DNA from: Fibrobacter sp.
GTDB taxonomy: Bacteria > Fibrobacterota > Fibrobacteria > Fibrobacterales > Fibrobacteraceae
Length of the DNA stretch: 64,000 bases
Assembly (NCBI GenBank): GCA_031271785.1
Contig: JAISUZ010000112.1
Span: 1-64,000, forward strand
Direction: 5' to 3'
The notes below the pieces were generated by a model. The model saw only the letters and a list, made by a program, of their open reading frames with translations, made no database searches and was not told the DNA's origin. This document shows positions 289 to 63,892 of this stretch, in pieces; position 1 is the first letter of the stretch; the number at the start of each line of letters is the position of its first letter. Position numbers and translations under genes: made by a program.

Positions 289-430
289 CATATACGAATG
301 CCTTTTCTTCGCGTGAGGGATGGTGACCCGAAGGGCGGAGACGCGTTTGCGCGGCTCCGTTGCACTCGGCGGGTTCCCCGCCTTAGTGCAATACAGCCCG
401 GCCGGCGCGAAAATCGCGCCGGACACGCCC
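289..430 (-). repeat. Composite structured repeat, type 2 (copy 1)
   Basis: Consecutive hairpins can be read directly: GGCAT/ATGCC at 289-304; GGAG-a-CGCG / CGCG-g-CTCC at 337-358; TTGCACT-GGCGGG / CCCGCC-AGTGCAA at 360-391; and CCGGCGCGA/TCGCGCCGG at 402-422. It ends in ACGCCC. The same layout with different stem sequences occurs at 3561-3714 and 56980-57143. It stands upstream of glgM, which starts at 598. Confidence 0.8.
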
Positions 431-3560: not shown

Positions 3561-3714
3561 GGGCGTGCCCCGGCGACATATTCAATTACGATTAAATGCC
3601 CGTTACTCGCATTTAGTTCATTCGCGCCGGGTCGGGCTGTATTGCACTAAGGCTAAAGCCAAGTGCAACGGAGCCTCTAACGAGTCTCCGCCCTTCGGGT
3701 CACCATCCCTCACG
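3561..3714 (+). repeat. Composite structured repeat, type 2 (copy 2)
   Basis: Starts with GGGCGTGCCCCGGCG one base after the glgE stop codon. Hairpins: CCCCGGCG.. closing with CGCGCCGGG near 3631; TTGCACT-GGCT / AGCC-AGTGCAA at 3642-3668; GGAG-c-CTC / GAG-t-CTCC at 3670-3689. Compared with the copy at 289-430 the inner stems have changed on both arms. The 321-bp reading frame at 3565-3885 is an accident of this repeat. Confidence 0.8.
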
Positions 3715-4219
3715 CATCAATCGGGGCGAAAATATTCGACCCGTTCAGAGGCGATAAAACCCGCTTCTGTCACTGCGAGCCGAAGGCGCGGCAGTCCATT
3801 TTCTTATCATGGCGAGAGCAGAGCCCGCGGCCATCCGGACTCTGTATTGTTCTTCATTGGATTCTCGGATCAGGTCCGAGAATGACAAAGTATCTTTGAT
3901 CGCCGCATTCGCAATAACACTTGTACAAATAAAAAATGCAAACTGAACTAATACGCATTACACCGAAGCGGAAGGCTCCGGGGATTAGGTAACGGCGCAG
4001 ACTTGACAAGTCTTACATGACATTGCGAACTAAGCGGATGCGGAATAAGGGATATGAGATAAGAGAATCCGGGGAAACCGATTTTCCGTGTCCCATGCCC
4101 CTAATTTTTATGCCAGAAGAAGCATAGACGCGCGACCAAGCGGGGTTGGAGCGAGGGGGAGGCTTCCCCCTAAAAAAATCTTATTATTTTTCTTTTATAT
4201 TATTTATGAGGATACGAAA
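3715..4219. repeat. Repeat island: family C, then a family B-like copy
   Basis: 3722-3741 carries a GGGCGAAAATATTCGACCC-like motif shared with 25170 and 38815. 3774-3906 is a family C repeat (CACTGCGAGCCGAAGGCGCG onward) whose second half, 3822-3906, matches the reverse complement of 56675-56757 almost base for base; it contains the palindrome ATTCTCGGATC/GGTCCGAGAAT. About 3979-4035 holds a family B-like copy (CGCA ... TCTTACATGACATTGCGAACTA ... TGCG). The rest up to 4219 shows no gene; GATACGAAAA precedes the next start. Confidence 0.7.
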
Positions 4220-6271: not shown

Positions 6272-7570
6272 TTATCGCACCACGGATTCCACGGAACCTT
6301 GAGCGAGCCGCGTAGTAAGAACGTCGCCGCTTTTTAAGGATTCTCCGTTCCGGATCAGTTTTCCGTCTTGGCGGTAAGTGAGGCTGTAGCCGCGGGCGAG
6401 GAGCGTTTCGGGGTCGGCAAGGCGGACTTTTGTTTCGAGCAGTTCGAAATGCGTAAGCTTCAGTTTCAATATTTTTTGCACGCCGAGAACAAACCCTTCT
6501 TTGTTTCTCTTTAAGCGTTCATGTTCGGCTCTCAAATGAAACTGCGGAATTTTGGAAATATTTTTCCCGATTTGAACGAGAGTCGCTTTCTCATTGAGAA
6601 ATTTTCCGCTCGCATTTTTAAACAGGCGTTCCCGCAAATGCTTCAGGCGTTCTTTGTTCAGGATCAGCCTGTTTTGAATTTTCGCGGTAATCTCCCGGAT
6701 TAAATCCTGTGTTTCCGCCCAAGCGCCGGTTACGCGTTCGATTAGAAACTTGGCGCAGTCCGTCGGGGTAATGCGGGATTCCCAAGCGACAAAGTCGAGC
6801 AGGCTTTTGTCGATCTCGTGCCCGATACCGGTAAGGACGGGCACCGGGAACAGCGCGGCGGCGCGGCACAAGGCTTCGCTGTCGAAATAATTCAGATCGG
6901 TTTTAGATCCGCCGCCGCGAACGATACACACCACATCAATGTCTTGAGTGCGGAGTACGCCGAGAGCTTCGAGAATCGTATTTTCCGTTTCGTTCCCCTG
7001 CATTCTCGCAAAAGCGGGAATCACCTCAAACGCAAAGCCCGAGCCTGCGAGAGTCGTACAAAAATCCTGATAAGCGGCCGTACCTTCTCCGGTAATAAGC
7101 CCGACTTTCAACGGGACTTCGGCAAGCGGAAGCGCTGCATTTTTGCGGAGGAGTCCTTCTTTTTCGAGCCGCTCCAAAATCGCCTGCCGCGTGAGCGCGA
7201 GTTCTCCGATGGTATAAGCCGGGTCAATATCCAGCACGCGCCCCTGAAACTTTCCGTAAGGCACATAAAAATCCGATTCGATGAACAGATTCACCTTCAT
7301 TTGTTCTTTCAACTCAAAAGGGGCGGGCAAACTTTTGAGTTTGGCGTTCATTTTGGAAAAATCCGAACCGAAAATAAAAAGAGGAAGGGTGGCAACGGGC
7401 TTCACATCTCCCTCGGCAAATTCGGCGATACTTAAATAAACCATTCGTCCGCGTTCGGAAATTTGAGTAATTACGCCGTTTACCCAAACGGCGGGCACTT
7501 TCGTTTGGAGCAAATTACGAATGGATGTCAAGTACTTGCTGACGGGGAATGTGCGGATTTCGTTACTCAT
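6272..7570 (-). CDS. xseA: Exodeoxyribonuclease VII large subunit
   Basis: 432 residues. N-terminal OB-fold (about 1-100: SKYLTSIRNLL, VNGVITQISERGRMVYLSI) followed by the catalytic domain (KVGLITGEGTAAYQDF, VCIVRGGGSKTDLNYFDSE, TGIGHEIDKSLLDFVA) and a long coiled coil. It degrades single-stranded DNA with XseB, which is not adjacent here. The ATG at 7570 is preferred over the TTG at 7579 that gives three extra residues. It converges with the CNNM gene (stop codons 1 bp apart) and diverges from the lipoprotein gene at 7650. Confidence 0.95.
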   Translation of the reverse strand: MSNEIRTFPVSKYLTSIRNLLQTKVPAVWVNGVITQISERGRMVYLSIAEFAEGDVKPVATLPLFIFGSDFSKMNAKLKSLPAPFELKEQMKVNLFIESDFYVPYGKFQGRVLDIDPAYTIGELALTRQAILERLEKEGLLRKNAALPLAEVPLKVGLITGEGTAAYQDFCTTLAGSGFAFEVIPAFARMQGNETENTILEALGVLRTQDIDVVCIVRGGGSKTDLNYFDSEALCRAAALFPVPVLTGIGHEIDKSLLDFVAWESRITPTDCAKFLIERVTGAWAETQDLIREITAKIQNRLILNKERLKHLRERLFKNASGKFLNEKATLVQIGKNISKIPQFHLRAEHERLKRNKEGFVLGVQKILKLKLTHFELLETKVRLADPETLLARGYSLTYRQDGKLIRNGESLKSGDVLTTRLAQGSVESVVR

Positions 7571-7649
7571 AGGTCTCAAGATTTACTTGAGTTTATTATA
7601 GAATAATTTATATTAGCATAAGTTGTGGGTTTAAAAGTGGAGACTTAGA

Positions 7650-8039
7650 ATGGCAAAAAATATTTTCTTAATCGTTCTTTCCGGTTTACTTTGGTGGGGC
7701 TGTTCTTCACAGCGTTCTCTCGCCGAACAAAGAATCCGGGAAGCGGAATCCGTAGAAAGTTGGATGGAAAAAACCGTAGCGGACTCAGCAGCACTTGATG
7801 CGGCGCGCGGGAGCTTAACCGAAGCGAAAAAACTTCAATCCAAAAACAATTACGAAAACGCCCGCCTGGAAGCCGAAATCAGCCTTTTGGAATCGCGCCT
7901 TGTAATGACGGAAACGATCCGGGATTCGGTGGTTCGCGAAGATTCTCTTCTCGCCGCCGCCTTGGATGAGGATCTGCAACGAAAGGCATTCTATCAGCAA
8001 ACTTTGGAAAAAGAACTTCAAGAGAGGAGTGAAAAATGA
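7650..8039 (+). CDS. DUF4398-type lipoprotein
   Basis: 129 residues. Signal peptide MAKNIFLIVLSGLLWWGC with the lipidation Cys at position 18, then an all-helical, coiled-coil segment. The repeat ALDAARGSLTEAKKLQSKNN followed by YENARLEAEISLLESRLV is typical of DUF4398. Probably an envelope lipoprotein. The downstream OmpA gene starts inside its stop codon (ATGA overlap), so the pair is translationally coupled and likely acts together at the peptidoglycan/outer membrane. Ribosome site GGAG precedes the ATG at 7650. Confidence 0.85.
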   Translation: MAKNIFLIVLSGLLWWGCSSQRSLAEQRIREAESVESWMEKTVADSAALDAARGSLTEAKKLQSKNNYENARLEAEISLLESRLVMTETIRDSVVREDSLLAAALDEDLQRKAFYQQTLEKELQERSEK

Positions 8040-14747: not shown

Positions 14748-15000
14748 TCCGGCTTTGACATTCATTCGAGCTTCATCAGCTCTTGTTTCTATGTAAAAGT
14801 CGTCATTCAATTGACGATTTTTACAAAAATTTTGTCAATATAAATACTTTTTCTTTATACAAAATCATTAACCGACGGCTCTTGCATTATAGAGCGATGC
14901 CGCAAGCAGTGAGAACTCCGTACCCTGTTTCTCTGTCATTCCCCATTTCCAATCCCCGGTGTTTCATACCTGAAGAACTCAATTTTTATATGTTTGAAAC
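14748..15000. other. Intergenic with terminator, no gene
   Basis: AT-rich. Besides the terminator at 14793-14824, a small hairpin GCTCT/AGAGC stands at 14878-14895. I see no gene or repeat-family module in it. Confidence 0.5.
14793..14824 (+). terminator. Rho-independent terminator of the MBL-fold gene
   Basis: GTAAAAGTCGTCA (14793-14805) pairs with TGACGATTTTTAC (14812-14824) across a 6-nt loop: 13 pairs with one G-T wobble, and the T-rich arm supplies the U tract. It lies 45 bp after the stop codon of the MBL-fold gene. Confidence 0.7.
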
Positions 15001-15843
15001 ATGAAAAAAACAGATACCTGGTATAAAGCAAAGGGCTCATGCCCCGCAGAAGAATATGAAATGGCAAGTTACTTTCTTTTTGATGCCGGCGTACAAACCC
15101 TCGAAGAATTAGAGACAAACGAAGGAAAGATATTTTTCTGTTTTTATACGGCAAGTGCGGAGGACCGGGCGCGGATTGTGGCGCAGTTTCCGCAATATCA
15201 TTTTGAACTTTTTGAAGAACCCGCGCGCGATTGGGATTTGTGGTGGCGCGAGCGTGCGCAGCCTGTGGCGGTGAGTCCTCATTTGTATGTACGCCCGCCC
15301 TGGGTTGCTTTTGAAAATCCGGAAGCCATTATTTTGGAACTCGAAGCAAAAACCGCCTTCGGTACCGGAGAACACGCCACGACTTCGCTTACGGCAACTT
15401 TGATGGAGTCGATTCCGCTTCAGGGAAAAACTCTTTTGGATGTGGGCACCGGCACCGGCATTTTAGCGATGTTTGCGCGCCGTCGCGGCGCGCATCTGGC
15501 CGTAGGGACTGAAATTGATCCGCTCGCCATTCCCTGTATCGCCGAGAATTTTGAACGCAACGGCTTTACGGAAAGCGGCTGTGTTCTCGGTTTTTTGGAT
15601 GCTTTTAAGGAATCGGTAAAATTCGATATTATTGTGTGCAACATGATCCGGAGCGAACTCTGGGTGATCCGCGAAGAGATTATGCAGCACTTGGCTCCGG
15701 ACGGGTTTCTTATTTTATCCGGACAACTCGCGCAGGAAAAGCATTATATTTTAGATTGGTTCCGCGAAGAGAACATGGAAATCGCCGAAGAACAAACGCG
15801 GGATGAATGGTGGGCGGTTTCCGCACAAAAGAAAGGAGTCTGA
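15001..15843 (+). CDS. prmA: Ribosomal protein L11 methyltransferase PrmA
   Basis: 280 residues. The C-terminal Rossmann-fold methyltransferase domain shows the PrmA block KTAFGTGEHATTSLTATLME and the SAM-binding motif LLDVGTGTGILAMFA, followed by GTEIDPLAI; IIVCNMIRSEL replaces the usual NIL motif. The N-terminal about 110 residues form the divergent L11-recognition domain. Methylates ribosomal protein L11 in the cytosol. First gene of a likely prmA-nitroreductase-hemE operon; the stop codon is 1 bp before the next ATG. Confidence 0.9.
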   Translation: MKKTDTWYKAKGSCPAEEYEMASYFLFDAGVQTLEELETNEGKIFFCFYTASAEDRARIVAQFPQYHFELFEEPARDWDLWWRERAQPVAVSPHLYVRPPWVAFENPEAIILELEAKTAFGTGEHATTSLTATLMESIPLQGKTLLDVGTGTGILAMFARRRGAHLAVGTEIDPLAIPCIAENFERNGFTESGCVLGFLDAFKESVKFDIIVCNMIRSELWVIREEIMQHLAPDGFLILSGQLAQEKHYILDWFREENMEIAEEQTRDEWWAVSAQKKGV

Positions 15844-17537: not shown

Positions 17538-17671
17538 CGTATCTGCGGCAGGGATGCGACCCGAATGGGCGGAGATACCGCAGGGAGCTCCGTTTCAGCC
17601 GGTGGTTTTACCACCGCTGAAATGCAAGCCCGGTCCCGAAGGGAGCCACCCAAAAAAAATCAAAGCATCTA
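17538..17671. repeat. Intergenic with hairpin between convergent genes
   Basis: GC-rich. TTTCAGC-CGGTGGT / ACCACCGCTGAAA forms a hairpin at 17593-17622 with one bulged C. It lies between hemE and a convergent gene and may terminate either. It does not match the composite repeat family in this window. Confidence 0.5.
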
Positions 17672-23155: not shown

Positions 23156-23523
23156 AAAAACCTGCTTTTATGGAATTAATATAGTATTTCAAAATGTATT
23201 TGGGCGTGCCCCGGCGCGAAGCGCCGGGTCGGCGTGTCTCCGGGCTACCCTCCGGTCGGTGCTGCGCACTGCGCGCCAGCGCGCCCCCTCCGCCTGCCTC
23301 ACGTGTCTTCGCGCAATTCCAACACTTTTTGCACATCAATACAGTTCGCTCCGGCATAAAAAGTATTCTCAATGTGCGCCGCCACTCCGGACAAGCATAA
23401 CTACTATTGCGTTGTCATGCGCTGTTTTCTTTTCCGTACCCGGAGATCGGGGTCTGTAACCCCGAAATGATGTATATTTGAAAGCAAATAAGCGTAAGTT
23501 TATACGCCTATAAAGGATACGAT
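23156..23523. other. Intergenic between divergent genes, mostly repeat
   Basis: Holds the composite repeat at 23202-23372. A short inverted repeat GCGTA/TACGC at 23492-23507 lies 17 bp before the ABC ATPase start and might be an operator. AAAGGA (23512-23517) is the likely ribosome site of that gene. No gene here. Confidence 0.5.
23202..23372 (+). repeat. Composite structured repeat, type 1 (copy 3)
   Basis: Begins GGGCGTGCCCCGGCGC, closed at once by GAA-GCGCCGGG, then GGCGTGTCTCCGGGCTACCC, a GCGCGC-ca-GCGCGC hairpin at 23271-23284, CCTCCGCCTGCCTCACG, and a final stem AACACTTTTT (23330-23339) / AAAAAGTATT (23358-23367) with an atypical loop. It lies between divergent genes. Reading frames here (23127-23459, 23194-23400) are repeat accidents. 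Confidence 0.8.
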
Positions 23524-24398: not shown

Positions 24399-25121
24399 AT
24401 GGAACTGAAAAATATTTTCAAAATGGAAATGTTCAAGAATCGCAACGACAAACCGTATTTGTTTTTAATCGCGATTTTGATGGCTATGTCTACAGTTTCC
24501 ACATTTTGGTGGATTGCAGGAAGTACCGAATTTACAAATGATCGCTTTGGCGTTTTATTCGTACTTTTTCTCTTTTTTAATATTTTAGGCTTGGGTGTAT
24601 TTTCGTTACTTTATCCTTTTCATTTACTGAATACGGATTACAAAAATAAAGTGATGAGTTTGGTTTTTGCAAGCGGCGTTTCGCGAGCGAAGTATTATTT
24701 TGTAAAAGTGGGCGCCACTATTCTCAGCGGTTTTATTGCGATATTTGCCATTCTATTAATTCCGATGCTCACGTTCCTTGTGATTTATCCGGAAATTTTT
24801 ACGGAGCTTGTACAAAAACTGGTGAAAGGATTTTCCGTTTCGGACGTAACTCCGTTTGTATTGTGTTCGTTTTTCGGTTTATTGTCCAATATGGTTGTTT
24901 TGACAACAGCGGTGATTGTCACGAGAGGAAAAACATCGGGAATTTTTCTGTTTTTCCTTTTCCTGTTTCTGAACTCAAGCGCTTTTAGTTTGTTTGAAAA
25001 CCCTCTGAACACCGGCGATTCCATTTCGGAAATATTTTATACCGGTTCTTTGCATTCGATCATTAGTATTTGCGTTTACGTTGCGATCGGACTCGCGGTT
25101 TTGAAGAGACAGGATTTGTAA
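24399..25121 (+). CDS. ABC transporter permease
   Basis: 240 residues with about six hydrophobic segments (20-40, 55-80, 105-135, 150-175, 185-200, 220-237), the ABC-2 style layout. GASGVSRAKYYFVKVG-like cytosolic turns (VFASGVSRAKYYFVKVGA) link helices two and three. Forms the membrane half of the exporter with the ATPase just upstream. AGGACGG precedes the ATG. Confidence 0.85.
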   Translation: MELKNIFKMEMFKNRNDKPYLFLIAILMAMSTVSTFWWIAGSTEFTNDRFGVLFVLFLFFNILGLGVFSLLYPFHLLNTDYKNKVMSLVFASGVSRAKYYFVKVGATILSGFIAIFAILLIPMLTFLVIYPEIFTELVQKLVKGFSVSDVTPFVLCSFFGLLSNMVVLTTAVIVTRGKTSGIFLFFLFLFLNSSAFSLFENPLNTGDSISEIFYTGSLHSIISICVYVAIGLAVLKRQDL

Positions 25122-25838
25122 GCCTAAAGTATTGGGAGGGGGATGCCCTCGCTATGACAAAAAAAATCGGGCCGAAAATATTCGACCCCTGCCATCATTA
25201 TTGTCCTGTTTAAATTACAAATCGAAATCCGGAATAATATTTCTATTCCCGACATTTTATACCCGAAGAACTTGAGTTGCATTTTACATTTTTAAGGCGT
25301 TTGTATATGCCGTAAAATAAGCATCACCGCACTTTTGGAAAGTCTTTCATGCCTTAGCGAACTCAATTAATGCGGTAAAACAACGTCAATACGCTTGCGT
25401 TTTATATTGGAAGAATTTGAGTTACATTTTCACATGAGCGCGGTTCTCAATGCTTTGGGGACAAATTTTTAGGCTGGAAGCCGCTCCAATTTGTCCCGAA
25501 GCGTTGGAACCGTGCGAACATTGCGTGAGGCAGGCGGAGGGTGCGCGCAGTGCCGGATATTTCTCGGATTTCTCAAGAGTGAAATGCAGGGATAAGGGAA
25601 TGGGGGCTATGGATAAGAAGACTCAATCATGTCCCCTGTTCCGTACCCGAAGAACCGAAATATCCGGCACCGACCAACGGGTAGCCCGAAGCCCCGCCGA
25701 CCCGGCGCTTTAAAATGGACCCTGACCAAGCGGCGGCACACATTTGGAAAATCTTACATGCAAGTGCGAACTAATTGGTGTGCAAAACGAGTTCAGGGTA
25801 ACGGAGAGTGGTCGCGCCGGGGCACGCCCAAAAAAAGT
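25122..25838. repeat. Repeat island: family D, family B, composite type 1 (copy 4)
   Basis: 25169-25310 is family D, matching the reverse complement of 38687-38835 with few changes. 25326-25376 is family B (ACCGCA/TGCGGT). 25448-25506 is the conserved-loop hairpin and 25507-25829 the rest of a type 1 composite repeat in reverse orientation, ending GGGGCACGCCC nine bases from the stop of the release-factor-like gene. Within it 25736-25783 is another family B copy with GCACAC/GTGTGC ends. Reading frames across it (25450-25713, start of 25629-26270) are not genes. Confidence 0.75.
25448..25506 (+). repeat. Conserved-loop hairpin, copy E1
   Basis: Left arm 25448-25467, loop TTTAGGCTGGAAGCCGCTCC (25468-25487), right arm 25488-25506. 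The loop is identical at 56910-56929 and, on the minus strand, at 41220-41239, while the stems differ. Confidence 0.85.
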
Positions 25839-38356: not shown

Positions 38357-39230
38357 ACTTGTTTTGACTTTTGGCGTGCCCCGGCGCATTCATATAAAAC
38401 CGGCATGAAAACCGCGCCGGGCCGGCGTAGCTCCGGGCTACCCGCTGGTCGGTGCTGCGCACTGCGCGCAAGCGCGCACCCTCCGCTTGCCTCACGCGAA
38501 GAAAAGGCATTCGTATATGCCTCCAAAAACATTGTCAGCACGCAAGCGTATTGACGTTGTTTTACCGCATCAATTAAGTACGTTCCGACATGGTAAAACT
38601 TTCCAAAAGTGCGGTGATACTTATTACCGCATCAATAGAATTGCCCGATTATGTAAGACTTTTCAAGTCTGCGGTGATGCTTATTTTACGGCATATACAA
38701 ACGCCTTAAAAATGTAAAATGCAACTCAAGTTCCTCGGGTATGAAATGTCGGGAATAGAAATGTGATTCCGGATTTCGATTCACAATTGAAACAGGACAA
38801 TAACGGCGGCAGGGGTCGAATATTTTCGACCCGGTTTTAGAGCGGAAAAACTTGTTTCCGTTACTGCGAGCCGAAGGCGCGGCAGTCCATTTTCTTGCCA
38901 TGGCGAGAGCATAGCTCGCGGCCATCGTTCCTCCTTGGATCGCTTCACGCGTTCACGATGACAAAAAGAGGGGGCTCCGATAACGGTGAGTTTTCAATAA
39001 CTGAAACATGTAAAACGTTTCAATAAGAACGTTCTAACAAAACAAAAAAATCGGCGCCGCTACCTTGTCCCATTTCCCAAGGTTTCCAAGTGAGAAGAAC
39101 AAACTCGTACGGGTTACTATCCCTCGCGCGTTAGTGTTCGCCACCGGAGAAAATAAGAATATTGAGCAGAAGAGCTTACAAACTCTAACCTTCGGTTATT
39201 ATATTTATAAGCTATGGAAAGCAGGTATTT
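38357..39230. repeat. Repeat island: composite, family B x2, family D, family C
   Basis: 38373-38520 composite copy (see its entry). 38574-38615 and 38626-38675 are two family B copies side by side, both ACCGCA...TGCGGT. 38687-38835 is family D, reverse complement of 25169-25310. 38858-38935 matches the first half of family C at 3774-3838. From about 38960 to 39230 no repeat or gene is seen; it must hold the promoter of the DUF4321 gene. Confidence 0.75.
38373..38520 (+). repeat. Composite structured repeat, chimeric type 1/type 2 (copy 5)
   Basis: Starts GGCGTGCCCCGGCGC 16 bp after the gpsA stop. The body is type 1 (CTCCGGGCTACCCGC, small hairpin TGCGCGC-aa-GCGCGCA at 38463-38478), but the distal end is type 2 (CTCACGCGAAGAAAAGGCAT with the GGCAT/ATGCC hairpin). 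This shows that the modules recombine. Confidence 0.8.
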
Positions 39231-40991: not shown

Positions 40992-41258
40992 GGCGTGCCC
41001 CGGCGCCACCACCGTCACCCTGATCCTGAAACAAGTTCAGGATTCAGCATCCAAAAAAAGAACAAATTTGGATGCTTTGTGCATCAGTATCCACTATAAA
41101 GCGCCGGGTCGGCGTGTCTCCGGGCTACCCGCCGGTCGGTGCTGCGCACTGTGCGCTTCGCGCACACCCTCCGCCTGCCTCACGCGTCTTCGCGCGATTC
41201 CAACACTTTTTTCAAAACCGGAGCGGCTTCCAGCCTAAAGGTTTTGAAAAAAGTATTG
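40992..41258 (+). repeat. Composite structured repeat, type 1 with conserved-loop hairpin (copy 7)
   Basis: Starts GGCGTGCCCCGGCGC 19 bp after the gatA stop. The first stem (CCCCGGCGC/GCGCCGGG) has its loop filled by about 93 bp that include the palindrome ATCCTGAAAC/GTTCAGGAT. Then the type 1 body with hairpin TGTGCGC-ttc-GCGCACA (41150-41166), then a 19-bp hairpin (41201-41219 with 41240-41258) around the invariant 20-nt loop. Confidence 0.85.
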
Positions 41259-41907
41259 AGAACCGCGCTTAGGGATAAAAAATTACTGCCAAGTTCCTCG
41301 GGAATTGCAAACAAGGAATAAGTATCACCGCAGATTAGGAACGTTTTTCATGCCGGATTGCTCTATGATAATGCGATAACAAGTATCGGCATACTTTTAA
41401 AAAATCTTACATAACCTAACGAACTTAATAGGTACGCAAATAGGGACTTGGGACAAAGTTGCGATGCACACTTAAAAAGTTTTACATACAAATACGATCA
41501 ATATTGATGCATAAATGGGGAATAGAGAACTACACACACCATTTCCCGAAACTTTCATCACCCAATACGCTATAAAGAATCCATACAAAATACGAAACTA
41601 AGAAAAGCATTACATATTTATAATATAATAGAATACAAATAAAGAAAAAAGCTTATCTTTACAGAAAGCAGTTGGCGGACGATATGCGTACACAACTGCG
41701 TATATTTAGAAATTGTCGGCAATGCGGGACTGCATAGCATATTTTCCAAGCGAAAAAGATAGAGCGTTGCTGACAACTTTGGCGAAATCCGACAAAATGA
41801 ATGAGAATGGTGCAAAAATATTTTATAGATAGTTGTTTTTTTCCGTATCCGCTTCACTCAAATTTCATTGTCAATTCTACGTCGAAAAATGGAAAAAATC
41901 CTTAATT

Positions 41908-56151: not shown

Positions 56152-56890
56152 ATCAGAAAAGGGATAGAAGGGGGAAGTTTGCGCATCAATTGAGTTCGAG
56201 CGGTCATGTAAAATTTTTCAAGCCTGTGATGTCATTTCTGCGTTCAGCTCCGGCATGATACTTTGCTTTTAATAAAAGGGGGAGGCCCCCTCGCTTCAAC
56301 CGGCGTTAATCGCTCCGTCTTTTTCGGCTTCACCCGTCGCCGGCCGTCGCGCGCCGTTTTCCGCTACCCCCTTGAATGCATGATCTTCGGGGATGGAAAG
56401 CGGGGACATAAGGGATGTGGGACCAGGTAGCGGCGCACATTTTTTTGCTTTATTAGAACATTCATAAATGAAACTTCTTTATAAATGGCAAATCATACTT
56501 ATTGGAAAGTTTTACATGAAAGTACAACTTCATTGATGCGCAAAAACAAGTGGATCCTGAACCGAGTTCAGGATGACTGTGTTATGCAACGTTCTTTTTC
56601 CGTCATGCTGAATTTATTTTACACACCGATTAGTTCGCGCTTGCATATAATGTCATCGCGAACGCGGAACGCGTGCGGCGATCAAAGATACTTTGTCATT
56701 CTCGGACTTGATCCGAGAATCCGGTGAAGAACAATACAGGGTCCGGATGGCCACGAGCGATGATACTTATTACCGCATCGGTTTAGTTCGCTAGGTTTTG
56801 TAAGACTTTTCAAACCTGCGGTGATACTTATTCCCTGTTTGCAATTCCCGAGGAACTCGGCAGCAATTTTTTATCCCTAAACGCGATTCT

Positions 56891-56948
56891 CAATGTTCCG
56901 AGACAAATTTTTAGGCTGGAAGCCGCTCCAATTTGTCGCGGAGCGTTG
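56891..56948 (+). repeat. Conserved-loop hairpin, copy E2
   Basis: Arms 56891-56909 and 56930-56948 (19 pairs with two G-U and one mismatch) around the invariant 20-nt loop at 56910-56929. Confidence 0.85.
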
Positions 56949-56979
56949 GAATCGCGCGGGAGCGGCATTTTACATTTTC

Positions 56980-57143
56980 AAGGCGTTTGTATATGCCTTT
57001 TCTTCGCGTGAGGGATAGTGACCCGAAGGGCGGAGACGCTTCGCGGCTCCGTTGCACTTGGCGATTTCGCCTTAGTGCAATAGAGCCCGACCCGGCGCAT
57101 TATAGTGGACCCTGACCAAATGCGGTTGCGCCGGGGCACGCCC
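56980..57143 (-). repeat. Composite structured repeat, type 2 (copy 6)
   Basis: GGC..GCC hairpin at 56982-56997; GGAG-a-CGC / GCG-g-CTCC at 57032-57050; TTGCACT-GGCGA / TCGCC-AGTGCAA at 57052-57080; CCCGGCGC / GCGCCGGGG around 57090-57136; end GGGGCACGCCC at 57133-57143. It lies just upstream of the activase gene start at 57219. Confidence 0.8.
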
Positions 57144-57218: not shown

Positions 57219-60200
57219 ATGGGCTCTAATAATACTGATTTATGGATTGGAATGGATGTCGGCTCCACAACCGTGAAGATTGCGGTGGTCGATCCTCAAA
57301 CCGGAAAACTGCTGCATAATTCCTACCAGCGGCACAACGCGATGCAAGCCGAAAAAGTGATGGAGCTTTTGAAAGAGGCTCACGCGATGTTCCCCGGGAA
57401 AAAATTCGGCGTTGCCTTCTGCGGCAGCGGCGGTCAGCCCTTTGCCGAAGCGACGCACGCTTTTTTTGTGCAGGAAGTGGTCGCTAACGCTCTCGCAGTA
57501 CGTTCTCTCCACCCGGAAACCCGGGTCGCGATCGAGCTCGGCGGGCAGGACGCCAAAGTGATTTTCTTTGAGAAAGACAGAACCACCGGTAAACTCATCG
57601 CTTCCGATATGCGCATGAACGGCGTTTGCGCGGGCGGGACCGGCGCTTTTATCGATCAAGTCGCGGAACTTCTCCGTATTAAAACCGAGCAGTTCGAGTC
57701 TTACGCTTCTCAGGGAAAAAAGGTTTACGAGATTTCCGGGCGGTGCGGCGTATTCGCCAAAACCGATATTCAGCCGATGCTGAACCAGGGGATCGCTAAA
57801 GAAGATATTGCTCTTTCGAGTTTCCACGCGATTGCGAAACAAACCATCGGCGGGCTCGCTCAAGGGATGGAAATCAAGCCGCCGGTGATGTTTGAAGGCG
57901 GCCCTCTCACGTTTAACCCGACTCTCGTGCGGGTGTTTAAGGAACGCCTCGGGATTTCCGACGAGCAGGCGATTATTCCGGAGCATTCGGAAATTTTTGT
58001 CGCGCTCGGCGCGGCTCTTTCCCTCGGTTCCATGTTTAACGAGAAAGAAAGTCATTACGATGAAAGCGCTTCTCTCGATGCGCTCGCACATTTTAACGCT
58101 ACAAGACAAGCGGAACGCGGGAACGACGGCGAGCCGTTTTTCAAGAATGAGGCGGAGCTTGCCGCTTTTAAAAAACGTCATCCGCTCGCGAGTCCGCACT
58201 ATCCCCAACCGGTTTCCGGTTCCGTGGTGAACGCTTACCTCGGTATCGACGCAGGCTCCACCACCACCAAGATGGTGCTTCTCGATGAAAACGAACAGGT
58301 AATCGACGGGTTTTATGCCGGGAACGACGGCGAGCCGCTCGCGGTTTTAAAACGCGCTCTCGTTTCTCTCGCCGACCGCTACGAAGAGTTCGGTTGCAAG
58401 CTGAATATTCTCGGCGTGGGCACCACGGGCTACGGTGAACAGCTTTTCGCGAAAGCGATTAAGGCGGATTACCATACGGTAGAAACCGTCGCCCATGCAA
58501 ACGCCGCCCAATACCTCCATTCCGATGTTTCATTTATTCTCGATATCGGCGGGCAGGATATGAAAGCGATTTCCATTCAAGACGGCGTGGTGACGGGAAT
58601 CATTTTGAACGAAGCCTGTTCCTCGGGCTGCGGTTCCTTTATTGAGACTTACGCGCGCTCCCTCGGTATCCCTATGGAACAAATTGCGGAGCTTGCATTT
58701 AACGCCAAGAGTCCATCGAAACTCGGGAGCCGCTGCACCGTATTCATGAACAGTTCCATTATCACGGAACAGCGCGACGGCAAACAGCCCGAAGATATTA
58801 TCGCCGGAATCTGCCGCTCTATTATCGAAAACGTTTTCACCAAAGTGATCCGCATCCGTAACCTCGAGACCCTCGGTAAAGTGGTGGTGGTTCAGGGCGG
58901 GACTTTCAAAAACGACGCCGTTCTCCGCGCATTTGAACAACTCACGGGTTTTACGCCGATTCGCCCGGAACGCCCGGGGGAAATGGGAGCGATCGGTATT
59001 GCGCTCCTCACCAAACGCCACATGGAGAGTAAGCGGGCGGAAAACCCGGAGACGCCGAGTTCGTTTGTCGGACTTGAAGCCATGCGGACCTTCAGCTGGG
59101 ATAATAAGCCCGGGCAAATCTGCAAATACTGTACCAACCATTGCAGCCGCACGATCGTTACGTTCAGCGACGGTTCGAGTTTTGTAACAGGTAACCGCTG
59201 CGAACGCGGCGAAGTTACCGCCGACCCGAACGATCCGGAAACGAAAAAAATCGTGGCGGAAATTCACAAAAAAATGCTCGCCGTCCCGGACATGATCAAG
59301 CGCACAAACCAGCTTCTCGTGAAAGATTACGGTCCGGCTCCACTGGTGCCGCAATCCGGAAAAACCATCGGTATTCCGCGGGTACTCGAATTTTGGGTGA
59401 GTCTCCCCTATTGGAAAGCATTCTTTACCTCGCTCGGCTACAACGTGGTTATCAGTAAAATAAGCGATTATCCGTTGTTTGAAAAAGGGCTTCACAGCGT
59501 TCCTTCGGACACGGTTTGTTTCCCGGCGAAACTCGTACACGGACACGTTCTCGACCTTATCGAGAAAAAGGTGGACCGGATTTTCTTCCCATGCATGATC
59601 GCAGTCCCGAGCGACCACAGCAAATTTCAAGCCACCGCCGTTTGCCCCGTGGTGCAAGGCTACCCGAACGTTTGTAAAAACACGGACGATCCGGAAGGGC
59701 GTTACCATACGCCGCTTGATCAGCCGACATTCCACTGGTTCGATACCAAACTCCGCCGGAGCCAGACCATCGACTGGTTCCACGAAAACTGGAAACTCTC
59801 GAAAAAACTGCTCGATAAAGCAGTGACCGAAGGCGAAAAAGCGTTGCAGACTTACCGCGATACTCTCCTTGCCGAAGGCGGACAAATTCTCGAAGACACG
59901 AGAAAAAAAGGTCAGTTCGCGGTGGTCATTGCCGGAAGACCTTACCACGCCGACACGCTCGTGAATCACAACGTCGCCACGCACTTTACTTCTATGGGAA
60001 TCCCGGTGCTCACCACCGAATCGCTCCCGGGAGTTTACGATCAGGACGTTCCGAAAGTCACGCGTATCGAACTCAAGAATACCTTCCATTTGAGAATGCT
60101 CGGCGCCACCATGATTGCGGCTAACGATCCGGCGATCGAACTCGTGCAGATTGTAAGCTTCGGCTGCGGACACGATTCCATTCTCACCGACGAAATGAAC

Positions 60201-63307: not shown

Positions 63308-63892
63308 TCAATTCAAATAATAAGCCACACCAAATTTTAATTGTACGTGATTCACTTCGGCGAGCGAAGAATCCGTATTTCCGATAATCGCAAGTTTGCA
63401 ATCTATTTTTACTTTATTCTTAATCGTAAAACCAAGTCCGAGCGGTATCACGTTAATATAAATGTCTTTCCGGCCTTTGATCCAATTATCCTTATTGTCA
63501 TTGTTCACAACTTTAGAATAAACAGGAATATCCAACAAAAGACCGACGGCAAAGAAAAACGAACCATAACGGCGCGGCGTGAATTGAAGCGTAACCGGAG
63601 TATTCAACATCCACTCATTCAGGCTTACGTCAATATCAGGATCTTTAATCGAATGGTATTCCAAATTCACTTCCGGCGCAATGCTTAAACGACTGCCCAA
63701 CGGAATGCGAACAGCACCGCCCAATTCAAAACCAAAGCCCAAGCCGCCAACCATTTCATAACCGTAATCATTAAAATCAGCAGTCATTATATGCTCAGAG
63801 AATCCGGCTTTCAGCCCAAACTGCACTTTGCTTTCCTGTGCAAATGTAAAAGATACGCTCACAAATATTAACCACAAAACCAGTTTCTTCAT
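63308..63892 (-). CDS. Outer-membrane beta-barrel protein (porin-like)
   Basis: 194 residues. Signal peptide MKKLVLWLIFVSVSFTFAQ, then alternating strands (VQFGLKAGFSEHIMTADF, GFGFELGGAVRIPLGSRLSI, VNLEYHSIKDPDIDVS) ending in the terminal aromatic-type strand VQLKFGVAYYLN. This is the eight-stranded OMP_b-brl pattern. Ligand unknown. AAAGGA precedes the ATG. Convergent with the ABC-F gene. Confidence 0.85.
   Translation of the reverse strand: MKKLVLWLIFVSVSFTFAQESKVQFGLKAGFSEHIMTADFNDYGYEMVGGLGFGFELGGAVRIPLGSRLSIAPEVNLEYHSIKDPDIDVSLNEWMLNTPVTLQFTPRRYGSFFFAVGLLLDIPVYSKVVNNDNKDNWIKGRKDIYINVIPLGLGFTIKNKVKIDCKLAIIGNTDSSLAEVNHVQLKFGVAYYLN

Follow-up and report, generated by a model that had tools for sequence, protein, structure and literature searches.

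What keeps one and the same loop on hairpin stems of different sequence? In the window (the whole stretch of 64,000 nt that was analyzed), the 20-nt loop TTTAGGCTGGAAGCCGCTCC occurs exactly in three places, each time flanked by its own complementary arms, as the initial annotation had described. The 17-nt core of the loop, with up to 3 mismatches allowed, was found 3 times in the 64,000 nt against 0.12 expected by chance. Folded as DNA, the three hairpins, referred to here as H, each come to about -21 kcal/mol. A weak fourth copy had also been proposed at 23330-23367. It is indeed devoid of the loop, but it is the right half of H with the left arm missing, and it has both outer right-arm types in tandem. 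The H features of the window are as follows.

25442-25513, plus strand: H hairpin with A-type inner arms, loop at 25468-25487 (DNA folding)
41194-41265, minus strand: H hairpin with B-type inner arms, loop at 41220-41239 (DNA folding)
56884-56955, plus strand: H hairpin with A-type inner arms, loop at 56910-56929 (DNA folding)
23317-23386, minus strand: right half of H, lacking loop and left arm, 5' of an M1 module; the proposed fourth copy

The genome (2.28 Mb in 112 contigs) contains 87 copies of the loop when up to 2 mismatches are allowed (51 copies are exact), compared with 0 for a reversed-pattern control; 765 kb of its sequence was examined as stretches. The loop had been called invariant, which applies to the three window copies, but T8C and T3C are common genome-wide. 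The inner arms fall into two types, A (ACAAATT/AATTTGT) and B (CAAAACC/GGTTTTG), and so do the outer arms, U (TTCTCAAT/GTTGGAA) and V (GCCGCCACTTGG/CCAAGTGGCGGC). Among the 87 copies, the inner arms are matched in 67 and hybrid in 8, and in the remaining 12 one of the two inner ends is odd. The outer arms mix as well, with a V left arm joined to a U right arm in 17 copies and to a V right arm in 7, so that the outer stem is often a mispaired hybrid. In L058 the loop is inverted relative to the adjacent M1, and in several copies (for example L036, L060 and L072) unrelated DNA is joined at the loop. No arms without the loop were found in a genome search that covered all but the last right-arm queries.

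A variable stem under a constant loop had been read as the signature of a selected structure, in which H itself would be a structured RNA or a protein-bound DNA hairpin kept by compensatory mutation. Taken over all copies, the pairing fits such a reading. For the whole set the arm pairing was 82.3%, versus 72.8% with shuffled arms (0/1000); in a 77-sequence alignment the stem pairing exceeded all shuffles and slides, and 17 of 22 pairs showed two-sided changes. The signal vanishes, however, within the arm types, where the pairing was 0.960 versus 0.951 for shuffled right halves in one type (45/1000) and 0.969 versus 0.968 in the other (628/1000). Since pairing within a type is not clearly above the shuffles, the covariation of H reflects linked blocks and in effect very few events. 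Given the hybrid arms, the inverted loop and the foreign flanks joined at the loop, the matched changes are better explained by block exchange than by many independent compensations. The initial annotation had offered arm-to-arm gene conversion as an alternative. It had also stated that lack of loop conservation elsewhere would refute a selected hairpin, and among relatives this is what was found, with the loop in 0 of 60. Public genomes gave three single, unrelated matches to the loop, and viral contigs gave no match to the loop, M1 or M2. With H absent from all relatives, a single genome is the basis for any statement on its origin and function. Together with the mispaired outer stems, these results make it quite unlikely that H is maintained as a selected structure of its own.

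H does not stand alone. A second module, M1 or M2, lies just 3' of H on the same strand in 78 of the 87 copies (M1 in 62, M2 in 16), mostly 31-38 nt from the loop. H copies without either are mostly at contig ends or beside a further M variant. M1 is laid out as GCGTGAGGCAKGCGGAGGG-stem-AGTGC..GCACCGACCGGAGGGTAGCCCG..CGCCGACCC-stem-GGGGCACGCC and M2 as GCGTGAGGGATGGTGACCC..GGGCGGAGAC-stem-GGCTCCGTT-stem-AATACAGCCCGACCC-stem-GGGGCACGCC. The first and last helices are common to both, and the M2 model also detects M1 weakly. M is found without H as well: 20 good M2 matches in 342 kb that had been selected without regard to H extrapolate to about 130 M2 copies genome-wide, and a first-look count over the genome gave 195 M1 and 138 M2. 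The copies in the window, listed below, are located between chromosomal genes and outside any conjugative leading region.

25523-25741, plus strand: M1 directly 3' of H, with a long insert in one stem (51.9 bits, E 8.9e-9)
40993-41185, minus strand: M1 directly 3' of H, with an insert in the last stem (86.9 bits for 41077-41185)
57006-57141, plus strand: M2, 3' of H (115.2 bits, E 1.2e-29)
23204-23304, minus strand: M1 directly 3' of the partial H (90.8 bits)
38374-38497, minus strand: M1 without H (89.7 bits)
311-428, plus strand: M2 without H (107.8 bits)
3563-3715, minus strand: M2 without H (104.6 bits)
17545-17649, plus strand: M2, weaker (60.2 bits)

In our literature searches, these repeats were not described for Fibrobacter. 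Other repeated intergenic modules, such as TGATACTTATTACCGCAT, CAACGTCAATACGCTTGCG and CGGGTCGAAAATATTCGACCC, form mosaic arrays around H-M (window positions 25115-25300, 38370-38915 and 56286-56870). A short hairpin AGGGGG..CCCCCT followed by TCGCTTCA often comes directly after stop codons (L063 after 7675; L047 after 2521, minus strand; window 25135), and is possibly a terminator type of this genome.

M folds into a multi-branched structure, in which P1 (GCGTG/CACGC), P2 (GGG/CCC) and P3 (GGGC/GCCC) are followed by P6, with P4 and P5 enclosed by P3. In a MAFFT alignment of 27 M2 sequences, 96.0% of the cells were paired and 21 of 39 pairs carried two-sided changes, a result that no shuffle equaled; with the partner slid, pairing fell to 34-47%. 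In a set drawn mostly from genomes outside the training set, 97.9% were paired with 26 two-sided pairs, the alignment here being fitted to the model. Entire helices are different from one relative to another, as in P4 with GGAG/CTCC, GAAG/CTTC, CAAG/CTTG and GGCG/CGCC, and the covariation is strong across genera. M is clearly a selected structure. The original idea of a selected structure at this locus was thus partly right, with the strong support coming from M rather than from H. G-T pairs outnumber A-C pairs by 28 to 5 on the structured strand, which indicates that the GCGTGAGG strand is the folding strand, although the count was made on a structure chosen with G-U allowed, a choice that itself leans the same way. 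Rfam gave no family at or near its gathering score for M, with only tRNA matched in the window and relatives, and no family where M2 occurs on a Bradyrhizobium plasmid or on plasmid F. The M2 covariance model, R1, was built from Fibrobacteraceae copies and its E-values are rough. In R2, the first M1 model, the tails were misaligned so that P1 and P6 were missing, and it was used only for locating copies.

Where else, then, does such a structure occur? A sequence search with M2 of the window found a 38-nt core at 94.7% identity in Bradyrhizobium plasmids. R1 matches proteobacterial plasmids, namely of Bradyrhizobium, Sphingomonas, Methylocystis, Sphingobium and Allorhizobium, and also of Agrobacterium, Edwardsiella, Novosphingobium and Methylobacterium. 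The E-values at the plasmid loci range from 1e-15 to 1e-6, and outside plasmid F these scores are not independent, since the matches were first found by sequence similarity. Many of the sites lie among genes of the leading-region type (psiA, psiB, ssb, ParB, DUF2493, DUF736, DUF932 and ArdC-like); the context is less clear at the Methylobacterium site and one Sphingomonas site. In 13 of 15 plasmid or F matches, counted manually, the 5'-side gene starts away from M, which makes the folding strand the template, the arrangement expected of the transferred strand.

Plasmid F reportedly carries a single-stranded DNA promoter, Frpo, described by Masai and Arai in 1997. The contexts and orientation on the other plasmids led to a test on F, which was picked beforehand on account of its Frpo regions rather than through sequence similarity. 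In the 20-kb stretch used, R1 gave exactly two matches, at 58093-58172 (E 4.7e-12) and 63481-63560 (E 1.4e-8), both on the transferred strand; being duplicates, they count as one independent test. Each falls inside one of two 552-bp blocks, 89% identical and about 5.4 kb apart, which are located upstream of ssb in one case and of the gene at 64032 in the other. Judged by position, the blocks match the published Frpo2 and Frpo1, which precede ssbF and ygeA/ygeB, respectively, and have 92% identity at a spacing of about 5 kb (PMC9849209). Frpo1 and Frpo2 are single-stranded DNA promoter regions of plasmid F (PMC9849209, PMC11541004). In each block, P1 of the structure has co-varied (GCGTC/GACGC), and the segments GGGCGGAGAC...GGCTCC and ACAGCC are conserved. 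Because the match occupies one end of the block, it may adjoin the promoter hairpin without being the promoter. On the evidence of these model matches and gene contexts, M belongs to a family of structures also found in the leading regions of conjugative plasmids, on the strand that is transferred as single-stranded DNA.

The match to the F blocks and the orientation on plasmids raise the possibility that M acts today in the chromosome as a single-stranded DNA promoter of the Frpo type. The copies of this chromosome, however, are not placed in a promoter-like manner. By rough gene calls, the 5'-side gene starts away from M in only 8 of 20 M2 and 16 of 34 M1 copies, and no strand bias toward flanking genes was found in this genome with rough ORF calls that include spurious ORFs in the repeats. 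The complementary strand also gave no convincing pair of -35 and -10 boxes, the best hexamer pairs having 3-6 mismatches. A present-day promoter is very unlikely on these grounds; a chromosomal copy, if any still works, might serve as a single-strand promoter, as a structure of transferred DNA or as nothing more than a recombination site. H-M further differs from Frpo in being chromosomal and of high copy number, and in carrying H and long hypervariable stems.

Within the phylum, R1 matches 89 of 168 genomes in 9 of 41 genera, nearly all of one family plus one genome of another. The domain PF09603 (Fibrobacter succinogenes major domain) is present in one of these genera, g2, which is probably Fibrobacter. 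When pairs of g2 loci were compared, homology was present on one side of M2 only and broke off 0-9 nt from its edge. At one hotspot in six genomes (L224-L229), conserved left and right blocks surround different inserts of 2-17 kb, with a terminator-like hairpin on the left and each terminating at a full or 5'-truncated M2. Cargo at the M2 loci includes an LlaJI-type restriction enzyme and a nucleotidyltransferase-HepT pair, whose genes end just before M2. In Fibrobacter-like genomes (L230 at 7055-7699 and 14763-15407, L232 and L176), M2 is fused to a duplicate of PFOR or CarB that is 5'-truncated and retains only the 3' end, while the intact gene stands on the opposite side of the cargo. PFOR was identified by Pfam; CarB and a ThrS-like fragment were read from the translation. 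About 45 nt after M2, the truncated copies are interrupted by a short hairpin element, GTAGGCGACTCGT..ACGAGTCGTCGGAGGCGAGAGTGAG.

These sharp joints, the accessory genes that end at M2 and the fused gene ends are what would be expected if M were an att-like recombination site, either similar to integron attC or the end of a genomic island, with H as an accessory. M also resembles attC in keeping a folded shape while varying the stem sequence and in sitting 3' of accessory genes in relatives. By eye, however, it ends in GCGTG/CACGC and not in the attC core boxes (RYYYAAC/GTTRRRY), and it is dispersed instead of forming one array. No integron integrase was identified, none of the three tyrosine recombinases of the genome being classified as IntI. 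The copies in this genome flank no obvious cargo, and repeats of 100-150 bp also yield breakpoints via ordinary homologous recombination. We therefore regard an att-like site as unlikely. Insertion of H next to tyrosine recombinase genes was considered separately, with two of the three recombinase genes lying near copies, and was dropped because the recombinases look like Xer-type enzymes or a single integrase and the H-M copies are widely spread. On contig C24, an H-M copy is found on either side of a 276-aa tyrosine recombinase gene (L063:6845-7675).

Could H-M instead be a family similar to REP/BIME elements or MITEs, moved in trans by a transposase? Like REP, BIME and REPIN elements, H-M is short, palindromic, intergenic, mosaic and present in high copy number, as the extrapolated M2 count illustrates. 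Yet M differs from them in having at least five helices with conserved junctions, and in residing in a genome where no Y1/RAYT transposase was found, although the control genomes were positive. Neither a target-site duplication nor a tag of the GTAG/CGTC type was noticed by eye. Mobility of this kind has, in our estimate, a low probability.

The reading that we favor, with moderate confidence, is that H-M is a dispersed repeat related to the leading-region single-strand structure, which has been amplified and shuffled in this chromosome. H would form the 5' domain of the compound repeat. H-M may have descended from a leading-region element, or share ancestry with one, and then multiplied together with H in this chromosome. 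Recombination between copies at shared junction segments, possibly as gene conversion or template switching, would exchange stems, loop flanks and entire arms, and the pairing of H would be kept mainly by matched arm blocks moving together. Several observations weigh against such a descent: H is missing from all relatives, the chromosomal placement is not promoter-like, unlike that on plasmids, the promoter boxes are not convincing, and no recombinase is linked to H-M.

More tentatively, the history may extend further. It is possible, if doubtful at present, that a leading-region fold family spanning phyla became a chromosomal repeat of the Fibrobacteraceae, that it marks cargo joints beside duplicated ends of housekeeping genes, and that in the present genome it gained a second hairpin and more than 100 intergenic sites. 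If this is true, the structure, so far known only where conjugative plasmids enter the recipient, would have a much wider distribution than has been assumed. The covariance model would offer a way of finding leading regions, and perhaps single-strand promoters, beyond enterobacterial plasmids, and the chromosomal copies would show a leading-region element turning into a genome-shaping repeat.
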